Assembly (NCBI RefSeq): GCF_900230225.1
Contig: NZ_OCNH01000001.1
Coordinates: forward strand, 2,232,001-2,296,000
Reading direction: 5' to 3'
DNA from: Spirosoma fluviale
GTDB taxonomy: Bacteria; Bacteroidota; Bacteroidia; Cytophagales; Spirosomataceae
DNA length: 64,000 nucleotides
Positions 55,898-64,000 of the stretch are shown here, one piece after another. A program made the translations under genes and the position numbers. The first letter of the stretch is position 1. Each line of letters starts with the position of its first letter. Below the pieces are notes generated by a model. The model worked only from the letters and a program-made list of their open reading frames with translations. It was not told where the DNA came from and did not search any database.

Positions 55898-56163
55898 CTT
55901 ACTTATTTGTTTGCTTCGTCTATTCGCCAATAATTAAGAATTTTTATGAAAGTAGCTCGTTGGTATGTAAGGGCTGTTTGACGTAATTTTGCAGAACGCT
56001 TTTGAGTCCCCATTCACGCTGAAGGTTGTCCAGTTTACCTCATTTGTGATACGTTTAGGCTTCTTTCCGGGCTAACTCATCCCCGCCGGGATGGCAAAAT
56101 CATCGTTCTTAACTCAAATTGGTATAACTTTACGTTTTAGTTCGTTCGTTTACGCTCTTGTTC
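55898..56163. other. Leader region of the Kelch-DUF4907-DUF4270 operon
   Basis: With the terminator before it, this gap spans about 330 bp. It holds the second CATTTGTGATACGT copy and a TACGTTTA (56050-56057) that is one base off the -7 consensus. A small frame at 56091-56333 overlaps the Kelch gene in another frame and is not supported. Confidence 0.4.
56041..56054 (+). repeat. 14-nt motif shared by two upstream regions (copy 2)
   Basis: CATTTGTGATACGT, identical to 54297-54310, lies here about 110 nt before the Kelch lipoprotein start. Confidence 0.4.
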
Positions 56164-57240
56164 ATGATTCATTTACCATTTCGATTTCTTTCGGCTACCA
56201 ACTCCCAGCCGCAATCTGTACTCCAGGAGGCATCGCTCTCTCCCGTAACCAAGACAGGCAAAAAACAGCAACGGATAAACTGGGTGCTGGGTGCCCTTTC
56301 CATCGGCTGGGCGGGACTGCTGATCGGCTGTAATAGTTCTACTACAGTGTCGACTCTGGGCGACTGGACAAAACGATCTGCATTCGAAGGCGTAGGCCGT
56401 TCCGGTGCCTCCAGTTTTGTCATTAATAATATTGCGTACATGGGTACCGGCCTCGATGGCAGCAACCAGCGGCTTCAGGATTTCTGGGCTTATGATCCGG
56501 CCAAAAACGCCTGGACCCAAAAAGCTAACTACGGTGGCTTAGCCCGTTATTCGGGCGTAGGTTTTTCCATTGGTAACAAAGGCTATATCGGCACTGGCAT
56601 CAATTTGAACAGCGATAGGCTGAAGGATTTCTGGAGCTATGATCCAACCACTAACCTCTGGGTTAAGGTGGCTGATTTTGGTGGAACCGCCCGCTATGGT
56701 TCGCTTGCTTTCGGGATTGGCAACAAAGGATATGTAGCTACCGGCAATGATGGCAACTACCTGAAAGACATGTGGGCCTTTGATCCAACGGCCAATACCT
56801 GGACCAAAGTAGCCAGCTACGGTGGTGAAAAACGCATTGGCGGTGTTGCTTTTGTGATTGAGGGTAAGGCCTATGCGGGCACCGGAAACAACAATGGCAT
56901 TGCCCAGCGCGACTGGTACGTATATGACCCTGCTACGGATACGTGGACGCAGAAGCTTGACTTCCTAACCGACCAGGCCGTTCAGCGGAGCTATGGCATT
57001 GGGTTTGCCATCAACGGAAAAGGGTATGTAACCCTTGGCGATAACGTAGCCGTTTGGGAGTACAATCCAGCCACTGATATCTGGGCACAACTCGGCTCGT
57101 TTGAAGGCTCACCCCGCCAGAACGCGGTTGGTTTCGCCATTGGCAACAAAGGATACGTAACTACCGGTAGCGCCAGCGGTACGAGCCGTTTCGACGATCT
57201 GTGGGATTTCGATCCAACCATTGAACAGGTTATTAACTAA
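56164..57240 (+). CDS. Kelch-repeat beta-propeller lipoprotein
   Basis: From the ATG at 56164 (a TTG two codons earlier is also possible) the protein is 358 residues. A long basic N-region precedes a lipobox ending at Cys56 (AGLLIGC). Six Kelch/galactose-oxidase-type blades follow, each with a repeated GVGFSIGNKGYIGTG-like strand pair and a DFWAYDPAKNAWTQ-like strand. No oxidase copper site is visible, so it is a binding propeller. It starts a three-gene unit with a DUF4907 protein (41 nt later) and a DUF4270 lipoprotein, a trio I recall recurring in Bacteroidota. A role in outer-membrane or surface assembly is inferred. Confidence 0.85.
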   Translation: MIHLPFRFLSATNSQPQSVLQEASLSPVTKTGKKQQRINWVLGALSIGWAGLLIGCNSSTTVSTLGDWTKRSAFEGVGRSGASSFVINNIAYMGTGLDGSNQRLQDFWAYDPAKNAWTQKANYGGLARYSGVGFSIGNKGYIGTGINLNSDRLKDFWSYDPTTNLWVKVADFGGTARYGSLAFGIGNKGYVATGNDGNYLKDMWAFDPTANTWTKVASYGGEKRIGGVAFVIEGKAYAGTGNNNGIAQRDWYVYDPATDTWTQKLDFLTDQAVQRSYGIGFAINGKGYVTLGDNVAVWEYNPATDIWAQLGSFEGSPRQNAVGFAIGNKGYVTTGSASGTSRFDDLWDFDPTIEQVIN

Positions 57241-57281
57241 GTAAGGTGCAGGATAGCTCATTGAAAAAAGCTGGCCCATCG

Positions 57282-57608
57282 ATGCAGTCAAATCTGGTCC
57301 GGAAAGGATTACTTCTGGTGTTACTGGTACTGGCAATTTTAACGGTCAGGCTCGTTTACCAGCGTCAGAATCCGTATACGGTTGAGGTTTTTGCAACAAC
57401 CGGTGGCTGGGGCTATTCAATCGTAACTAATGGCAAGCTGCTCATTCATCAGCCTACGATTCCGGGTCAGCCCGGAATCGTAGGCTTTGCTTCCGAAGAC
57501 GAAGCAAAGCGCGTTGGCGAACGGGTAGTGGAGAAAATACAAAAGGATAAGGCCCTGCCTACCCTGACGAATGACGAACTACGCCAGTTGGGCGTAAAAA
57601 TTCCCTGA
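57282..57608 (+). CDS. DUF4907 family membrane-anchored protein
   Basis: From the ATG at 57282 the protein is 108 residues; an in-frame GTG at 57246 is an alternative. One N-terminal transmembrane helix (GLLLVLLVLAILTVRLVY) anchors a small domain. It carries the DUF4907 signature GGWGYSIVTNGKLLIHQPTIPG, then GFASEDEAKRVGERVVEKIQ and LTNDELRQLGVKIP. The function of the domain is unknown. It lies between the Kelch and DUF4270 genes, 11 nt before the latter, so all three are very probably one complex or pathway. The DNA for PTIPGQPGIVGF contains a 12-bp inverted repeat (CTACGATTCCGG...CCGGAATCGTAG). Confidence 0.82.
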   Translation: MQSNLVRKGLLLVLLVLAILTVRLVYQRQNPYTVEVFATTGGWGYSIVTNGKLLIHQPTIPGQPGIVGFASEDEAKRVGERVVEKIQKDKALPTLTNDELRQLGVKIP

Positions 57609-57619
57609 ATTATTTGCTT

Positions 57620-58942
57620 ATGCGTATTCTCTGGTACGCCGGTTTGCTTTGGCTAACCGGTATCGTGCTATTTGGTTGTCAGTCGGGCGATCTCAACGTG
57701 GGTCAGTCGGTTATAAATCCGCAGCAGTTGCAGGTTTTTTCCCTTGACTCCATGACGGTGAAAACCTCCACAGTTATGCGGACCGATTCATTCCTGACAT
57801 CAGGCTCTTCTGAGCCGGATATAGCGGTTGGTTATTGGAAGGACGCGCAAACCGGACAGCAAACCGTTCAATCGTTTGCGGCTATTGATTACCCCGCCAA
57901 TTCGTTAGTATCCCAGACAAATTTTCGACTGGATTCACTGGTTCTGGAATTCGGCTACTCCTTTGTCTATGGTGATACAACATCGACTTTTGATCTGAAT
58001 GTCAGTCTGCTGAACAGACCCATGCCGGCCCAGTTCTATTACAACACCAGTTCGGTTGGGTACGCGGCCAAACCAATTGCCAAACGTTCGTTTCTGCCTC
58101 GTCCACTGAGCGGTACTCGTCAACTGCAGGTTCGCATGCCGGATTCTCTGGCGCAGAACCTATTTAACAAACTGATTAGCGGAGAGATTACCAACAACAT
58201 AAACCTGAACGATTTCCTGCCAGGTTTTGCCATGACCTCCACGTCTACGGCCAATACAATGCTCGGTTTATCGACGAACAGCACCGTTAGTGGCTTACGT
58301 ATGTATTACCACGATACAGACCTGAATCGCACGGCCGCTACCCTTCTGTTCCCGATTACATCGCTGCATTTCACCAAGATAATCAATGACCGCAGCGGTA
58401 CACCACTAAGCGCGCTGAAAAGCAAATCCGACGTTGTTAGCAGTACCCTGACCAACAATACGACCTTTGTTTCGGTGGGTGCCGGTTTGCAAACCCGGGT
58501 CGAATTTCCCTACCTGAATGATTTTTTCCGGCCAGAGAACCTTGCCGATTTGAACAGAGCACTTTTAGTCATCAACTCCGTTCGGCTCGACAGACGCGAC
58601 AATAGTCCGCCCTTATCGAGTCTGCAACTGTACCAGACCAATAATCAGAACGAATTTATTGCTTCGATACCGGGTGGTATTTCAGGAGGTGAAGCTGCTA
58701 GTGGCAACTACTTCGTAGATCCGTTAGCTATCCTGTTTACCGATAGTTATACGATCGATCTGACCTATTACATTGGCCAGATCATCAAGAAAAAAGCACT
58801 TACTCAACCGCTCCTGCTTGGAGTTCCAACTCCTCAAGGTGGTTATACAATTCGGACGTTACTTCAGCGGTCTGCGCTTGGGGATCAATTCAAGCAGAAT
58901 GACCAGTTGCAATTAAAACTGTTTGTTACCTCTGGAACCTGA
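57620..58942 (+). CDS. DUF4270 family lipoprotein
   Basis: From the ATG at 57620 (a TTG two codons before is less likely) the protein is 440 residues with a lipobox at Cys20 (GIVLFGC). The mature part starts DLNVGQSVINPQQLQVFSLDS and continues with the beta-rich DUF4270 pattern. This includes VMRTDSFLTS near the N-terminus, FRLDSLVLEFGY, FPITSLHF, LNRALLVINSVRLD and a C-terminal LKLFVTSG. DUF4270 proteins are Bacteroidota surface lipoproteins of unknown function. It ends the three-gene unit and is followed by a 26-bp hairpin. Confidence 0.83.
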   Translation: MRILWYAGLLWLTGIVLFGCQSGDLNVGQSVINPQQLQVFSLDSMTVKTSTVMRTDSFLTSGSSEPDIAVGYWKDAQTGQQTVQSFAAIDYPANSLVSQTNFRLDSLVLEFGYSFVYGDTTSTFDLNVSLLNRPMPAQFYYNTSSVGYAAKPIAKRSFLPRPLSGTRQLQVRMPDSLAQNLFNKLISGEITNNINLNDFLPGFAMTSTSTANTMLGLSTNSTVSGLRMYYHDTDLNRTAATLLFPITSLHFTKIINDRSGTPLSALKSKSDVVSSTLTNNTTFVSVGAGLQTRVEFPYLNDFFRPENLADLNRALLVINSVRLDRRDNSPPLSSLQLYQTNNQNEFIASIPGGISGGEAASGNYFVDPLAILFTDSYTIDLTYYIGQIIKKKALTQPLLLGVPTPQGGYTIRTLLQRSALGDQFKQNDQLQLKLFVTSGT

Positions 58943-59383: not shown

Positions 59384-61093
59384 ATGAGTTTAGAAACAGC
59401 TAACACGTCAAATTCTTATTTATCATCTCTCCCTAAAACGCTGACCGGCATCACAGGTTTGGATGAAATTACCAAAGGTGGATTACCGAAAGGCCGTCCA
59501 ACCCTAATTTGCGGTAGCGCTGGCTGCGGTAAGACGCTTTTTTCTATTGAATTTATCGTACGGGGTGCCCTCGAATTTAATGAACCGGGGGTCTTTATGG
59601 CTTTTGAAGAAAAATCGGAAGAGTTGGCCCAAAATGTAGCCTCGCTGGGGTTTGACCTGAATCAATTACAACGGGATAAGCTCATCAGGCTGGATCACGT
59701 TCATATCGAACGAAGTGAAATAGAAGAAACTGGCGAGTATGACCTCGATGGGCTGTTTATCCGGCTCGGCTATGCCATTGATCAGATAGGCGCCAAACGG
59801 GTCGTTCTGGACACCATTGAAAACTTGTTTTCCGGTCTGACCAATCAGGGAATTCTCCGGGCAGAATTAAGGCGCCTTTTCGAGTGGCTTAAAGAACGGA
59901 AAGTAACAACCATCATTACCGGCGAACGGGGCGATGGTACATTGACCCGACACGGGTTGGAAGAATACGTGTCGGACTGCGTTATACTCCTGGACCATCG
60001 GGTGAGCAACCAGATTTCGACCCGGCTGCTACGCATCGTCAAATACCGGGGGTCTATGCATGGCACGAACGAGTACCCGTTCCTGATCAATGAGAAAGGC
60101 ATTTCTGTGCTGCCCGTCACCTCCCTGACGCTGGATCATCCGGTATCGTCTGATCGCATATCGTCCGGGATTCCGGCGCTGGATAAAATGCTGGACGGGC
60201 AGGGCTTTTTCAAGGGTAGCAGTATTCTGATTTCGGGCACCGCTGGTACGGGTAAAACAAGTATTGCGGCCAGCTTTGCCAACGAAGCCTGCCTGCAAAA
60301 CAGACGGTGTATCTATTTCGCTTTTGAAGAGTCTTCGCATCAGATCATCCGCAACATGCGCTCCATTGGTTTCGACCTTCAGACGCACATCGATAAAGGC
60401 CTGTTGAAGTTTCAGGCTTCCCGCCCTACCTTGAACGGGCTGGAAATGCACCTGGTAGCGATCCACAGGCAGATAAAAGAATTTAAACCATCGGTCGTTA
60501 TTCTGGACCCGATTACCAATCTGATTACTGTTGGCACGGTGAGTGACGTAAAATCGATGCTGATCCGGTTAATCGACTTTTTGCAGGCCGAGCAAATTAC
60601 GGTTCTATTTACGGCCCTGACGCTCAACAATGTCATCAATGAGCAGACCGACGAAGGCGTTTCGTCGCTGGTCGACGCCTGGTTACTGGTAAAAGACATA
60701 GAGTTCAATGGGGAACGAAACCGGGGCTTGTATGTCATGAAATCGAGGGGAATGAAACACTCCAATCAGGTACGGGAGTTTATCATTACCGACAAAGGGC
60801 TCGACCTGGTTGATGTTTACCTTGGCTCGGAGGGGGTTCTGACCGGTTCGGCGAGGGAAGCCCAGCAACTGCTTGAAGAAACGGGCATTGTCTTACGCGA
60901 ATACGCGACCACCCGGAAAGACCGCGAAATTGAGCGTAAAAAATTGATTCTGGAATCGAAGATTGCCAGCCTGAAAGAGGAATTTGAGTCTGTCCAGGAC
61001 GAATTGAACAAGACCTACATTGAGGATGAGTTACGGAAGGAAGTGATGCAGAAAAATCGGGAGCAGATGACCCGGAGTCGGCACAACGAATAA
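59384..61093 (+). CDS. kaiC: KaiC-like double RecA ATPase/autokinase
   Basis: This 569-residue cytoplasmic protein has two RecA-type domains. CI has Walker A GSAGCGKT (44-51) and catalytic pair Glu75-Glu76. CII has GTAGTGKT (285-292) and Glu315-Glu316. In CII, residues 421-431 align without gaps to the phosphosite loop of cyanobacterial KaiC: Thr422 matches Thr426, and Ser427-Ser428 replace Ser431-Thr432, so autophosphorylation is plausible with a Ser-Ser pair. The C-terminus (about 505-569) is a charged, probably coiled-coil extension and not the KaiA-binding tail of the 519-residue clock protein. No kaiA is present. Two kaiB genes and a kinase gene follow, so it is a KaiBC signalling module, perhaps a timer or stress regulator rather than a true clock. 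Confidence 0.93.
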   Translation: MSLETANTSNSYLSSLPKTLTGITGLDEITKGGLPKGRPTLICGSAGCGKTLFSIEFIVRGALEFNEPGVFMAFEEKSEELAQNVASLGFDLNQLQRDKLIRLDHVHIERSEIEETGEYDLDGLFIRLGYAIDQIGAKRVVLDTIENLFSGLTNQGILRAELRRLFEWLKERKVTTIITGERGDGTLTRHGLEEYVSDCVILLDHRVSNQISTRLLRIVKYRGSMHGTNEYPFLINEKGISVLPVTSLTLDHPVSSDRISSGIPALDKMLDGQGFFKGSSILISGTAGTGKTSIAASFANEACLQNRRCIYFAFEESSHQIIRNMRSIGFDLQTHIDKGLLKFQASRPTLNGLEMHLVAIHRQIKEFKPSVVILDPITNLITVGTVSDVKSMLIRLIDFLQAEQITVLFTALTLNNVINEQTDEGVSSLVDAWLLVKDIEFNGERNRGLYVMKSRGMKHSNQVREFIITDKGLDLVDVYLGSEGVLTGSAREAQQLLEETGIVLREYATTRKDREIERKKLILESKIASLKEEFESVQDELNKTYIEDELRKEVMQKNREQMTRSRHNE

Positions 61094-61226
61094 TTCATTT
61101 CTGGCTCGTTGAATACTGTTTAATAGCGCAAAGGTTAGTTGTCATGGGATGACCCGCTGATCGTCAGCCAATAACCGCTCGGGCGAATAGCCAGCAATCC
61201 AATGCTTATGATTACTTACTTAATGA

Positions 61227-61520
61227 ATGGAAACGAACGATGAAACGTGGGAGCTGCGGCTCTACATTGCTGGTAATACCCCTAAATCCCAACTTGCCCT
61301 CTCGAACTTAAAAAAGTACTGCGAAGAGCATCTAAAAGGTAAATACCTGATTGAGGTCATTGACCTGCTGGTAAAACCACAACTGGCAGAAGGCGACCAG
61401 ATATTTGCGGTACCAACCCTTGTAAAAAAAGTACCTGAACCTATTCGGAAGATTATCGGCGACTTATCGAATGAAGAGAAAGTGCTGGTAGGCTTGAATA
61501 TTCGCCCGGCTATTAAGTAA
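61227..61520 (+). CDS. kaiB: KaiB protein, canonical-like copy
   Basis: This 97-residue thioredoxin-like protein follows KaiB closely: [27 protein letters not shown], then [41 protein letters not shown] and EKVLVGLNI. KaiB changes fold and binds the KaiC CI ring. The product has a short acidic N-terminus and no export signal. It lies 133 nt after kaiC and its TAA directly abuts the ATG of the second kaiB, so the two are translated together. Confidence 0.93.
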
Positions 61521-61841
61521 ATGATCAATCAATCACCAACCCAGGAGAATACTGACCCGGAAGATGAAGGTCAGCATTATGTCTTACAATTATTTGTAAC
61601 CGGCATTTCTCTGAATTCGGTACGGGCGATTGCCAATATCAAGCAAATTTGTGAACAGTATTTGCCGGGTAAATACTCGCTGGAAATTATTGATGTTCAT
61701 CAGCAAAAAACACTCGCCGAGCGAGAGCAGCTCATCGCCCTACCCTTACTGATCAAACGTTTACCCCTCCCGGAACGCAGGTTGATAGGCGACCTGTCCG
61801 ACACAAAAAAAGTTTTATCAGGCTTAGGCATTATTAATTGA
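61521..61841 (+). CDS. kaiB: KaiB-like protein, divergent second copy
   Basis: This 106-residue protein keeps the KaiB frame (LQLFVTGISLNSVRAIANIKQICEQYL, YSLEIIDVHQQKTLAEREQLIALPLLIKRLPLPERRLIGDLS, KKVLSGLGI). It differs from the first copy in key loop positions: the GNTP turn is [11 protein letters not shown] is QQKTLAE, and PTL is PLL. It also has an extra acidic N-terminus (TQENTDPEDEGQH). The differences suggest a separate role, such as binding the downstream kinase, rather than redundancy (inference). Its start abuts the first kaiB stop, and the kinase ATG follows 4 nt after its stop. Confidence 0.92.
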   Translation: MINQSPTQENTDPEDEGQHYVLQLFVTGISLNSVRAIANIKQICEQYLPGKYSLEIIDVHQQKTLAEREQLIALPLLIKRLPLPERRLIGDLSDTKKVLSGLGIIN

Positions 61842-61845
61842 GAGG

Positions 61846-63153
61846 ATGAACGGGGCGAAAACATATGAGCAACTGCTGGCCGAAAATGAAAGCCTGCGCT
61901 GGCAACTTGACGAAGCAACGGAAACAATTCAGGCCATTCGAACTGGCCAGATCGATGCGCTGGTAGTTCAGGGAAGGGAAGGGCATGAACTCTACACGCT
62001 CAAAACGGCCGATCAGACCTATCGTATCTTTATTGAAACAATGAACGAAGGGGCCGTAACCCTTAATCGGTCAGGCCTTATTCTATACAGTAACTCGGCT
62101 TTTGCAGCTATGGTCGATTTACCCCTTACCAAAGTATTTGGCTTATCCTTCCGGCAGTTTGTTGCCGACCACTCTCAGGAAGCATTCGATACTCTTTTTA
62201 AAGTAGGCTGGACTGGAAATCACAAAGCCGAGCTTTTGGTGACTACTACCACTAGTAAACGCGTGCCCTGCCAGTTGTCCGTAACGCCGATGCAGTTGGA
62301 TGGCGGAGATTGCCTGAGTCTTATTCTAACGGACTTAACGGCCCAGAAAGAGACGGAGAAGCTGTTGAAGGTAAAGAACGAGCAACTGGCGCAAACGAAT
62401 ACAGCGCTGGAAATTAGCAACCAGGCATTGAACCGGTCCAATAGTAATCTCCAGCAATTTGCCTATGTAGCCAGCCATGATTTGCAGGAACCTTTGCGGA
62501 AGGTCCAGCAATTCGGTGATCTGCTCAAAAACCGCTATGCCGACCAATTGGGCGATGGCGTTAATTACCTCGAACGAATGCAGTCGGCAGCTAGTCGTAT
62601 GTCGACGCTCATTCGTGATCTGCTGAGCTTCTCTCGTATTTCAACTCAACAGGATACGATTGCGCCGGTTTCGCTGGCGGCTGTATTCAAAAATGTGCTG
62701 AATGATCTGGACCTGCGCATTCAGGAAACAAACGCAATTATCGCAATCGATCCACTACCGGGCCTCCAGGGTGACCAGTCGCAGTTGGAGCAGTTATTTC
62801 AGAACCTGGTGAGTAATGCGTTAAAGTTCCGCCGTCCAGACGTGCGCCCCGTTATTCGCGTATGCGCCGAACGAGTGCCCGCCAGGCAGTTACCCGCATC
62901 CGTCAAACCAACCCAGCAAACGAAAGCCTACCATCGAATCGACGTGGCCGACAATGGGATTGGCTTTGAGGAGAAGTACGTTGACCGGATCTTTCAGGTA
63001 TTCCAGCGGCTCCATGGCAAAAACGAATTTGTTGGAACGGGTATCGGTCTGGCTATTTGTGAGAAAGTAGTGGCTAACCACGGGGGAGCCATCAGTGCCA
63101 GCAGCCAGCTCGGCCAGGGGGCCACCTTCAGCGTATACCTACCGGAGTTTTAG
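61846..63153 (+). CDS. PAS-domain histidine kinase of the Kai-like operon
   Basis: This is a 435-residue soluble kinase. The N-terminal 45 residues form a helix with ENESLRWQLDEATETIQAIR, then GQIDALVV, a segment often seen on kinases linked to kaiC genes. A PAS domain follows at about 55-170, then a coiled coil (170-205). The HisKA domain has His211 in VASHDLQEPLRKVQQF (the phytochrome-type kinase subgroup), and the HATPase has NLVSNALKFRRPD, DNGIGFEEKY and GTGIGLAICEKV. Unlike SasA it has no KaiB-like domain of its own, but it is encoded 4 nt after a KaiB, which may act as its adaptor. Its response regulator is not in the window. Confidence 0.93.
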   Translation: MNGAKTYEQLLAENESLRWQLDEATETIQAIRTGQIDALVVQGREGHELYTLKTADQTYRIFIETMNEGAVTLNRSGLILYSNSAFAAMVDLPLTKVFGLSFRQFVADHSQEAFDTLFKVGWTGNHKAELLVTTTTSKRVPCQLSVTPMQLDGGDCLSLILTDLTAQKETEKLLKVKNEQLAQTNTALEISNQALNRSNSNLQQFAYVASHDLQEPLRKVQQFGDLLKNRYADQLGDGVNYLERMQSAASRMSTLIRDLLSFSRISTQQDTIAPVSLAAVFKNVLNDLDLRIQETNAIIAIDPLPGLQGDQSQLEQLFQNLVSNALKFRRPDVRPVIRVCAERVPARQLPASVKPTQQTKAYHRIDVADNGIGFEEKYVDRIFQVFQRLHGKNEFVGTGIGLAICEKVVANHGGAISASSQLGQGATFSVYLPEF

Positions 63154-63269: not shown

Positions 63270-64000
63270 CTACTTCACTACTTTCATGGTCCCCTGCATT
63301 ACGTAGAAGTGACCAGGCACGGAACATTCGTATGTGTAGTCGCCGGGTTTATCGGGGGCGATAAAGTAGATCGACTCGTTGGTGTTGGGCTGGAGCAGAT
63401 TCGTGTGATACAGTACTTTATCCGTTTGCGGGACGTAGTTCTTCTCCTGTCCTTCCAGTCCCAGTTTCATAGCCAGTTCGCCCACCTGAATAGCCGAACC
63501 GGGCATTACTACCACGAAGTTATGAAGCATGTCGTCTTCGTTATTAAAGACAACCCGCACCTTGCTACCGGCTTTCACCTGAAACTGCTCGGTCGAGAAT
63601 TTGAGGCCGGGTTTGGTTCCCACATTGATCGTATAGTCCGGCTCACCCCAGGAAGCGGGCATCTCAGTAATTCGCTTGGCCACTGCCTTACCCGAAGCGT
63701 TAACCACACCGGCCGGTTTAGCCGAGGTCGTTTTCAGGCCCGTAGCTTTACGACCCACGGGCGGTGCCGTTGAGGTCGATGCCGTTACCATGCCTGAGTG
63801 GTCATGCCTGGCGGGCAACGGAGCAACGGCAAGCTTTTCGCCATCTGGAACATTATTCAGCGTATAATAGCCCACGTTGTGTAACAGCTTCCTTCCGGTA
63901 GTTGAGCGGATACCGGCGGTGGTAATCTCGTGAATGTAGCCCAGCCGTAAACTGTCCACAACCAGACGGGCTTTCAGGCCATCTTTGGAGACAACGATTC
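63270..64000 (-). CDS. Plastocyanin/azurin-like blue copper domain, C-terminal part of a larger protein (partial)
   Basis: The frame is open at the right edge and continues upstream of the in-frame GTG at 63959 (SKDGLKARLVVDSLRLGYIHEI...), so the 5' end lies outside the window. The first visible part (LRLGYIHEITTAGIRSTTGRKLLHNVGYYTLNNVP) resembles the sequence before the copper domain in large PQQ-propeller or membrane-bound dehydrogenase proteins of this phylum. A low-complexity linker (about 55-95 of the visible part) leads to a cupredoxin domain. Its type 1 copper ligands are visible: His in MLHNFVVVMPG, then Cys, His and Met in YECSVPGHFYVMQGTM. It probably carries electrons in the periplasm. 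Confidence 0.85.
   Translation of the reverse strand, partial: IVVSKDGLKARLVVDSLRLGYIHEITTAGIRSTTGRKLLHNVGYYTLNNVPDGEKLAVAPLPARHDHSGMVTASTSTAPPVGRKATGLKTTSAKPAGVVNASGKAVAKRITEMPASWGEPDYTINVGTKPGLKFSTEQFQVKAGSKVRVVFNNEDDMLHNFVVVMPGSAIQVGELAMKLGLEGQEKNYVPQTDKVLYHTNLLQPNTNESIYFIAPDKPGDYTYECSVPGHFYVMQGTMKVVK

Follow-up and report, generated by a model that had tools for sequence, protein, structure and literature searches.

The window analysed here, a 64,000-nucleotide stretch of the Spirosoma fluviale genome (contig NZ_OCNH01000001.1, positions 2,232,001 to 2,296,000), carries an operon of kaiC, two kaiB genes and a PAS histidine kinase gene, and we propose, with a probability that we put at roughly one half, that this operon specifies a KaiC timer of the kind known from Rhodobacter sphaeroides, which works without KaiA and is predicted to signal through a split SasA, the second KaiB (KaiB2) docking a short N-terminal module of the kinase. 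The proposal draws on the gene order, on conserved motifs, on the position of the two KaiBs on opposite sides of a tree, on the nearly exclusive company that the module keeps with kai genes and on the co-variation of the module with KaiB2. All four genes lie on the forward strand: kaiC (59384..61093, 569 amino acids (aa), two RecA/KaiC domains followed by a C-terminal tail), kaiB1 (61227..61520, 97 aa; PF07689, E-value 1.8e-26), kaiB2 (61521..61841, 106 aa; PF07689, 2.5e-23) and the kinase gene (61846..63153, 435 aa; HATPase_c 1.1e-22, HisKA 1.2e-10 and PAS_9 1.1e-8, with the H-box SHDLQEPL at His211). The spacing is 133 nucleotides (nt) between kaiC and kaiB1, 0 nt between the abutting kaiB1 and kaiB2, and 4 nt between kaiB2 and the kinase gene, so that the open reading frames (ORFs) and the Pfam matches agree with the preliminary description of this DNA, in which kaiC, two KaiBs and a PAS histidine kinase had been listed with the last three genes abutting or 4 nt apart. 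That description had also found no kaiA in the window and had proposed a genome search; when the whole host genome (7.8 Mb, 18 contigs, 99.98% complete) was searched, there were 0 matches to KaiA (PF07688), with a positive Synechococcus elongatus control. The genome contains two KaiBs, both in the operon, and no ORF but the operon kaiC matches the KaiC domain strongly twice (239 and 131 bits).

The kinase opens with a module of about 40 residues (61867..61980, forward strand; approximately residues 8-45) that reads E-x-LR-x-x-L-x-EA...AIR-x-G-x-(V/I)DAL-x-V. Of 71 ORFs examined for it, 69 were kinases encoded directly behind kaiB (60 in operons with two KaiBs and nine in operons with one), and alignment and motif placed the module, with its signature AIR-x-G-x-VDA, in 69/69; the remaining two ORFs were not operon kinases. 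The six Pfam matches of the window kinase all begin at residue 59 or later, beyond the module, and none of the best 25 of 74 NCBIfam matches covers it, all beginning at residue 52 or later. In order to look for the module independently of its neighbours, named genomes were scanned with a five-row module alignment containing no kai sequence; at least 595 stretches matched, 363 were confirmed and the best 80 were analysed. In 71 of the best 80 loci, kaiC-kaiB-kaiB lies directly upstream of the module gene. The remaining nine comprise two loci with two KaiBs and no detected KaiC, two with KaiC and one detected KaiB, three whose contigs are short or cut and show one KaiB, and two without an adjacent KaiB, namely L226, which is cut 288 nt upstream, and L214 (Methanoperedens), where kai genes lie a few kb away. 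By record titles the best 80 span about a dozen phyla, among them Proteobacteria, Acidobacteria, Verrucomicrobia, Planctomycetes, Chloroflexi, Gemmatimonadetes and Spirochaetes, and they include the archaea Methanoregula and Methanoperedens. The effectors behind the module vary: a domain scan of 74 of the 80 proteins (six short ones were omitted) gave 50 HisKA, 7 HisKA_2, 5 HWE_HK, 5 HisKA_3, 4 GGDEF, 4 EAL, 1 sigma-54 interaction domain and 1 HD_5, multiple matches per protein being possible, together with PAS_9 in 71/74 and a receiver domain in 37/74. A constant front end, joined to variable effectors and encoded beside constant partners, has the look of a docking module. One apparent fusion, L267 2831-4687 on a Methanoregula contig, runs from the 5' half of a KaiB through a stretch that we take to be MnmA-like into a module kinase; it was regarded as an assembly chimera and left out of the tree and the co-variation analysis below, and it is still counted in the 80 loci, the 71 and the 74 proteins.

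The company of module and kai genes was also followed from the side of the genomes, up to 15 first-look candidates being scored per genome in the searches of order, phylum and class. Among 390 genomes of the window's order, Cytophagales, the module was found in 84 and KaiB in 96, all 84 lying within the 96, and in 83/84 the module is at most 482 nt downstream of a KaiB match; the count of modules in KaiB-free genomes of the order was 0/294. In one genome of the window's family (G248, locus L317 5191-6642) the module kinase is intact, the upstream KaiB is only a 52-residue fragment and no KaiC was found near the kinase in the 13 kb read; this locus is a decayed operon in which the kinase outlives the timer. 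A phylum sample of 296 genomes yielded the module in 19 and KaiB in 27, with all 19 within the 27 (three of the 19 are also in the 84), and a class sample of 190 genomes around a Rhizobium genome yielded it in three, which are the three with a KaiB pair. None of the seven other genomes of the class sample with a single KaiB match (two of them below the cut-off) had the module, and kaiB precedes kaiC in all three of those seven that were read. Of 72,556 records in the plasmid collection, 13 carry the module, all beside KaiB, nine of them being strains of one species. Finally, 16 of the genomes behind the best 80 loci were searched whole with all first-look candidates scored, and the module was single-copy in 15 and present in two copies in Methanoperedens; this Methanoperedens genome (G678) also has a large cluster of Kai and kinase genes elsewhere (L313).

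The gene order itself was read in 86 Kai loci (59 from Cytophagales, 20 from other Bacteroidota and 7 annotated plasmid stretches), of which 60, the window included, are kaiC-kaiB-kaiB, 10 are kaiC-kaiB, 9 are kaiC-kaiB-kinase and 7 have other arrangements. A kinase gene on the same strand follows kaiC-kaiB-kaiB in 60/60. Pararhizobium has two KaiBs, and R. sphaeroides KD131 has kaiC-kaiB followed by an HWE kinase, with one KaiB. The arrangement is thus not special to the S. fluviale genome. The preliminary description rightly placed the DNA in a Bacteroidota genome (the nearest named KaiB homologues are those of Spirosoma, KaiB2 being 93% identical in S. linguale), and its implication that the operon is an oddity for that phylum did not hold, as the operon is common in Cytophagales and occurs far beyond the phylum. 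Both the kinase module and this wide spread of the cassette were absent from that description.

The two KaiBs of these operons differ from each other in a way that follows their position. A KaiB tree was built from 141 rows, consisting of 56 pairs (thinned from 132) and 29 single or reference KaiBs, over 113 columns; it was made by a quick method with support from the Shimodaira-Hasegawa approximate likelihood-ratio test (SH-aLRT) only, and many of its forks are unresolved. One branch with SH-aLRT 93 separates all 56 KaiB2, together with 15 single KaiBs, from all 56 KaiB1, the references from S. elongatus, Thermosynechococcus elongatus and R. sphaeroides, and 11 single KaiBs. Conservation is higher in KaiB1: all three of the fold-switch prolines given in PMC11551320 are present in 60/60 KaiB1, and the third is lost in 14/60 KaiB2. 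AlphaFold2 models, each made from a 41-row alignment of the respective paralogue, gave helix-helix-strand after the common half for KaiB1, as in the ground state, and strand-strand-helix for KaiB2, as in the fold-switched state. In Foldseek searches, ranks 1-17 of the KaiB1 model were ground-state KaiB crystals (template modelling (TM) score up to 0.86; root-mean-square deviation of 1.1 to 1wwj), and fold-switched chains reached only 0.39-0.44. The KaiB2 model showed the reverse, with fold-switched or KaiC-bound KaiBs in ranks 1-11 (4kun, 8fwj and 5jwr among them), SasA N-domains (6x61, 1t4y) mixed with thioredoxins in the next ranks, and only 0.39 to ground-state KaiB. From these models, KaiB1 is predicted to be a ground-state (metamorphic) KaiB and KaiB2 to rest in the thioredoxin-like, fold-switched and SasA-like state; the models, the Foldseek ranks, the tree side and the co-variation described next make KaiB2 the likely adaptor of the kinase.

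In order to compare how the parts of the operon vary together, distance matrices of KaiC, KaiB1, KaiB2, the 36-column module and the PAS stretch following it were compared for 128 of 133 operons; excluded were L267 and four loci without a full module match or without KaiC (L072, L223, L255 and L272). With KaiC partialled out, the correlation of module and KaiB2 was 0.46 (0.33 to 0.57) and that of module and KaiB1 was -0.01 (-0.12 to 0.08), and KaiB1 and KaiB2 correlated at only 0.08, though their genes are also neighbours. When KaiC, PAS and KaiB1 were all removed, the rank partial correlation of module and KaiB2 was 0.43 (0.35 to 0.52), a value reached in 0/200 label shuffles. With the three other matrices removed in the same way, module and KaiB1 gave -0.08 (-0.15 to 0.01), and PAS and KaiB1 gave 0.12. 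The 78 operons outside the order sample gave 0.45 for module and KaiB2. These values are indications that the module co-varies with KaiB2 and not with KaiB1, among related sequences that are not independent of each other.

The timer part of the operon resembles that of R. sphaeroides. KaiC matches PF06745 in two stretches (E-value 4.1e-107) and scores 757.6 bits with the general KaiC model NF006799, above its cut-off of 408; unlike a KaiC of the cyanobacterial KaiABC oscillator, it falls below the equivalog model circ_KaiC, TIGR02655 (362 bits against a cut-off of 546.25). Its best relative in the PDB is R. sphaeroides KaiC (8dba, E-value 7.8e-193, residues 16-569, tail included); this protein takes the first three ranks among solved structures (8dba, 8fwi, 8db3), and other KaiCs begin at 2.3e-106. 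The preliminary claim of two intact ATPase domains is borne out, since P-loop and Glu-Glu pair are kept in both. The CI P-loop GSAGCGKT (59513..59536, forward strand; residues 44-51) is followed by the catalytic Glu75-Glu76, the CII P-loop GTAGTGKT (60236..60259, forward strand; residues 285-292) by Glu315-Glu316, and both are conserved among 131 KaiCs. Ser427-Ser428 (60662..60667, forward strand) align with the phosphorylation sites Ser413-Ser414 of R. sphaeroides KaiC in 8dba, and the C-terminal extension (60854..61090, forward strand; residues 491-569) matches the coiled-coil tail of that protein. Among the 131 KaiCs of kaiC-kaiB-kaiB operons, Ser occupies the two sites in 128 and 129; in 121 the chain goes on for at least 50 residues past window residue 490. 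Judged by its sequence, then, KaiC is of the tail-bearing R. sphaeroides type, the two domains, the Glu pairs, an extension of about 50 residues and the adjacent Ser pair all being present. R. sphaeroides KaiC is described as autophosphorylating independently of KaiA and as forming a dodecamer through its tail, its KaiB as binding mainly the ADP state of CI, and the KaiBC pair as an hourglass, not an oscillator, that is reset by the ATP-to-ADP ratio (PMC10076222). This behaviour was transferred to the window KaiC because of homology, and the hourglass suggested in the preliminary description fits a KaiC of this type.

The operon might then work as follows. When ATP is high, KaiC would autophosphorylate on Ser427/Ser428, without KaiA because the C-terminal tail is proposed to stand in for it. 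Once CI holds ADP, KaiB1 would switch its fold and bind CI, which would bring faster hydrolysis and dephosphorylation, KaiB1 thereby resetting KaiC. KaiB2 would keep to the fold that binds KaiC, with the N-terminal kinase module docked on it; it would compete for or share the same CI ring and carry the kinase to or from KaiC, and therefore kinase activity would report the state of KaiC. The binding of KaiB2 to KaiC and to the kinase, the competition and the direction of the signal are what we infer from the comparisons above.

Several results weigh against this scheme. The main difficulty lies in the nine single-KaiB operons, R. sphaeroides included, which keep the module and whose KaiB falls on the KaiB1 side; because of them, a module that depends on KaiB2 everywhere is impossible, and in such operons the module would dock on the lone KaiB or on KaiC. 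The idea in the preliminary description that a stand-alone KaiB replaces the KaiB-like domain of SasA is in part supported: the tree side, the model fold and the co-variation speak for it, these nine operons against it. The module also correlates with KaiC (rank partial correlation 0.23), and the PAS stretch with KaiB2 (0.23 in all 128 operons, 0.13 in the 78 others). Within the 18 kb read around the second module kinase of Methanoperedens (G678, L312 9260-11284), neither the 9 kb before it nor the 6 kb after it contains a Kai gene. Confidence in both KaiB models is moderate (predicted local distance difference test of 70.1 for KaiB1 and 76.7 for KaiB2), and the alignments behind them differ in diversity, with mean column identities of 58% for KaiB2 and 78% for KaiB1; for T. 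elongatus KaiB, a wider alignment flips AlphaFold2 to the fold-switched state (PMC10808063). Moreover, the window KaiB2 retains all three fold-switch prolines. A search for a KaiB-kinase fusion, in which a concatenated KaiB2 and kinase query was used and the KaiB part scored, gave no match among 128 candidates; it is a weak negative, as the search requires shared 5-residue words and missed cyanobacterial SasA too.

One further argument, that KaiB2 is locked in its fold through the loss of G88 and D90 (S. elongatus numbering), was rejected as a general one. The substitutions G88A and D90R reportedly lock the KaiB fold. Both positions, named as residues of S. elongatus KaiB in PMC5520375, appeared informative in the 60-operon set (51 of Cytophagales, 8 of other Bacteroidota and 1 Pararhizobium plasmid), where KaiB2 is without G88 in 39 and without D90 in 56. 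Outside this mainly Bacteroidota set the residues are mostly kept: in the 73 pairs of the named-genome scan KaiB2 retains G88 in 59 and D90 in 52, which also counts against a constitutively switched KaiB2. The KaiB of R. sphaeroides has N and K at the two positions, and in the window KaiB2 the glycine is kept and the aspartate lost.

Among the alternatives to the split SasA, the one that survives best, unlikely though we consider it, is that there is no timer and that KaiC and KaiB form a plain ATP/ADP gauge which switches the kinase when energy drops. Many module hosts, by their names, are non-phototrophic, methanogens among them, and this suits a gauge. The setting of the R. sphaeroides hourglass by the ATP-to-ADP ratio (PMC10076222) points the same way. 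None of the present results speaks against a gauge; the slow fold switching of KaiB (PMC11551320) would add a delay if KaiB1 shares this trait. We find it rather improbable that the kinase is instead an input, its PAS domain sensing redox or another cue, the module relaying it to KaiC-KaiB and KaiB2 tuning KaiC on a mixed KaiB ring. An input role has been suggested for the kinase adjoining R. sphaeroides kaiBC (PMC5520375, PMC10931921) and agrees with the PAS_9 domain in nearly all module proteins; however, the variable ends are effectors (histidine kinases, GGDEF-EAL, a sigma-54 activator), which output fits better, and the PAS stretch co-varies with KaiB2 more weakly than the module does. 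Nor do we favour a module that docks on KaiC or on any fold-switched KaiB, KaiB2 being redundant or a competitor and not specifically tied to the kinase: this reading draws on the presence of the module in single-KaiB operons and on its correlation with KaiC, but the correlation with KaiB2 outlasts the removal of KaiC, PAS and KaiB1, that with KaiB1 is absent, and KaiB2 is the copy adjoining the effector.

Returning to the split SasA, the closest known system is the KaiBC hourglass of R. sphaeroides KD131, which shares a KaiC matched to its end, the Ser-Ser sites, the tail, the order kaiC-kaiB-kinase, the same kinase module and the lack of KaiA (PMC10076222), but which has a single KaiB and a kinase of the HWE class, where the window has two KaiBs and a HisKA kinase. 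Cyanobacterial KaiABC with SasA shares the KaiC and KaiB families, and the KaiB2 model is similar to the N-domain of SasA in its complex with KaiC CI, 6x61; here, in contrast, there is no KaiA, a protein of its own supplies the KaiB-like part, and the kinase opens with a short module. Indeed, KaiB2 is a separate ORF, the kinase has no KaiB match, and the model NF006800 gives 79 bits against a cut-off of 342, so the kinase is not a fused SasA. The Ramlibacter kaiC-HK pairs with RtaNt likewise pair KaiC with a specific histidine kinase whose N-terminal part is conserved, but they are without kaiB and RtaNt is described as SasA/KaiB-like (PMC3164672), whereas the module of about 40 residues follows two kaiBs; the two are set apart here by description. 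In Thiodictyon syntrophicum Cad16, kaiCBB has two kaiB genes after kaiC and an adjoining diguanylate cyclase gene, and the available text mentions it in passing, without analysis of either KaiB or of the effector N-terminus (PMC5944118). It has been reported that kaiC-kaiB outside cyanobacteria almost always has a histidine kinase or GGDEF/EAL gene behind it (PMC3164672), that PAS kinases adjoin kaiBC (PMC4794148, PMC10931921), that one Bacteroidetes group has only KaiB2/KaiC2-like proteins, in the naming of that paper, and that SasA homologues outside cyanobacteria are without a KaiB domain (both PMC5520375). In the accessible parts of the open-access literature we found no account of the module, of the positional split into KaiB1 and KaiB2, or of the spread of the cassette.

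It has been concluded that KaiBC systems without SasA and RpaA must use a non-cyanobacterial output pathway (PMC5520375). How they signal gains named parts from a module whose effectors vary and which is found almost exclusively next to kai genes, and from a KaiB2 that co-varies with it; the split SasA, if it holds, would show the signalling route of Kai systems outside cyanobacteria. For the R. sphaeroides model it matters that 71 of the best 80 relatives found through the module have a second KaiB, which the model is missing. We hold tentatively, at somewhat less than even odds, that KaiB2 and the module together serve the Kai timers without KaiA, in bacteria and archaea alike, as a general output plug: a constitutively KaiC-binding KaiB paralogue would recruit any effector bearing the module, whether a histidine kinase of one of the four classes, a c-di-GMP enzyme or a sigma-54 activator. 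In that case, the device in two pieces would be the older one, SasA would be its fused form in cyanobacteria, and the R. sphaeroides system with its single KaiB would be a reduced form.

No response regulator linked to the operon was found in the window, a further point against the split SasA. Elsewhere, stand-alone receiver (CheY-like) genes directly adjoin 15/60 kaiC-kaiB-kaiB-kinase operons, 7 of them upstream (L049-L053, L056, L058) and 8 downstream (L062, L086, L091, L098, L139, L141, L145, L146), and these receivers may be the kinase partners in those 15 operons. A second Kai type occurs in Cytophagales (L071, L075, L076, L093-L096), consisting of kaiC and one kaiB without a kinase; its KaiC reaches only 316-329 bits against the window KaiC, and in the tree its KaiBs sit with KaiB2 on the same side of the branch. 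A lone KaiB gene lies on a plasmid of Hymenobacter sp. GOD-10R (L152 6995-7288), with no KaiC in the 14 kb shown. Upstream of kaiC in the window, Kelch-repeat, DUF4907 and DUF4270 genes stand in a row (56158-58942), the last ending 441 nt before kaiC, and downstream, on the reverse strand and convergent with the kinase gene, lies an azurin-like copper protein gene (63270-63998) that is open at the window end.

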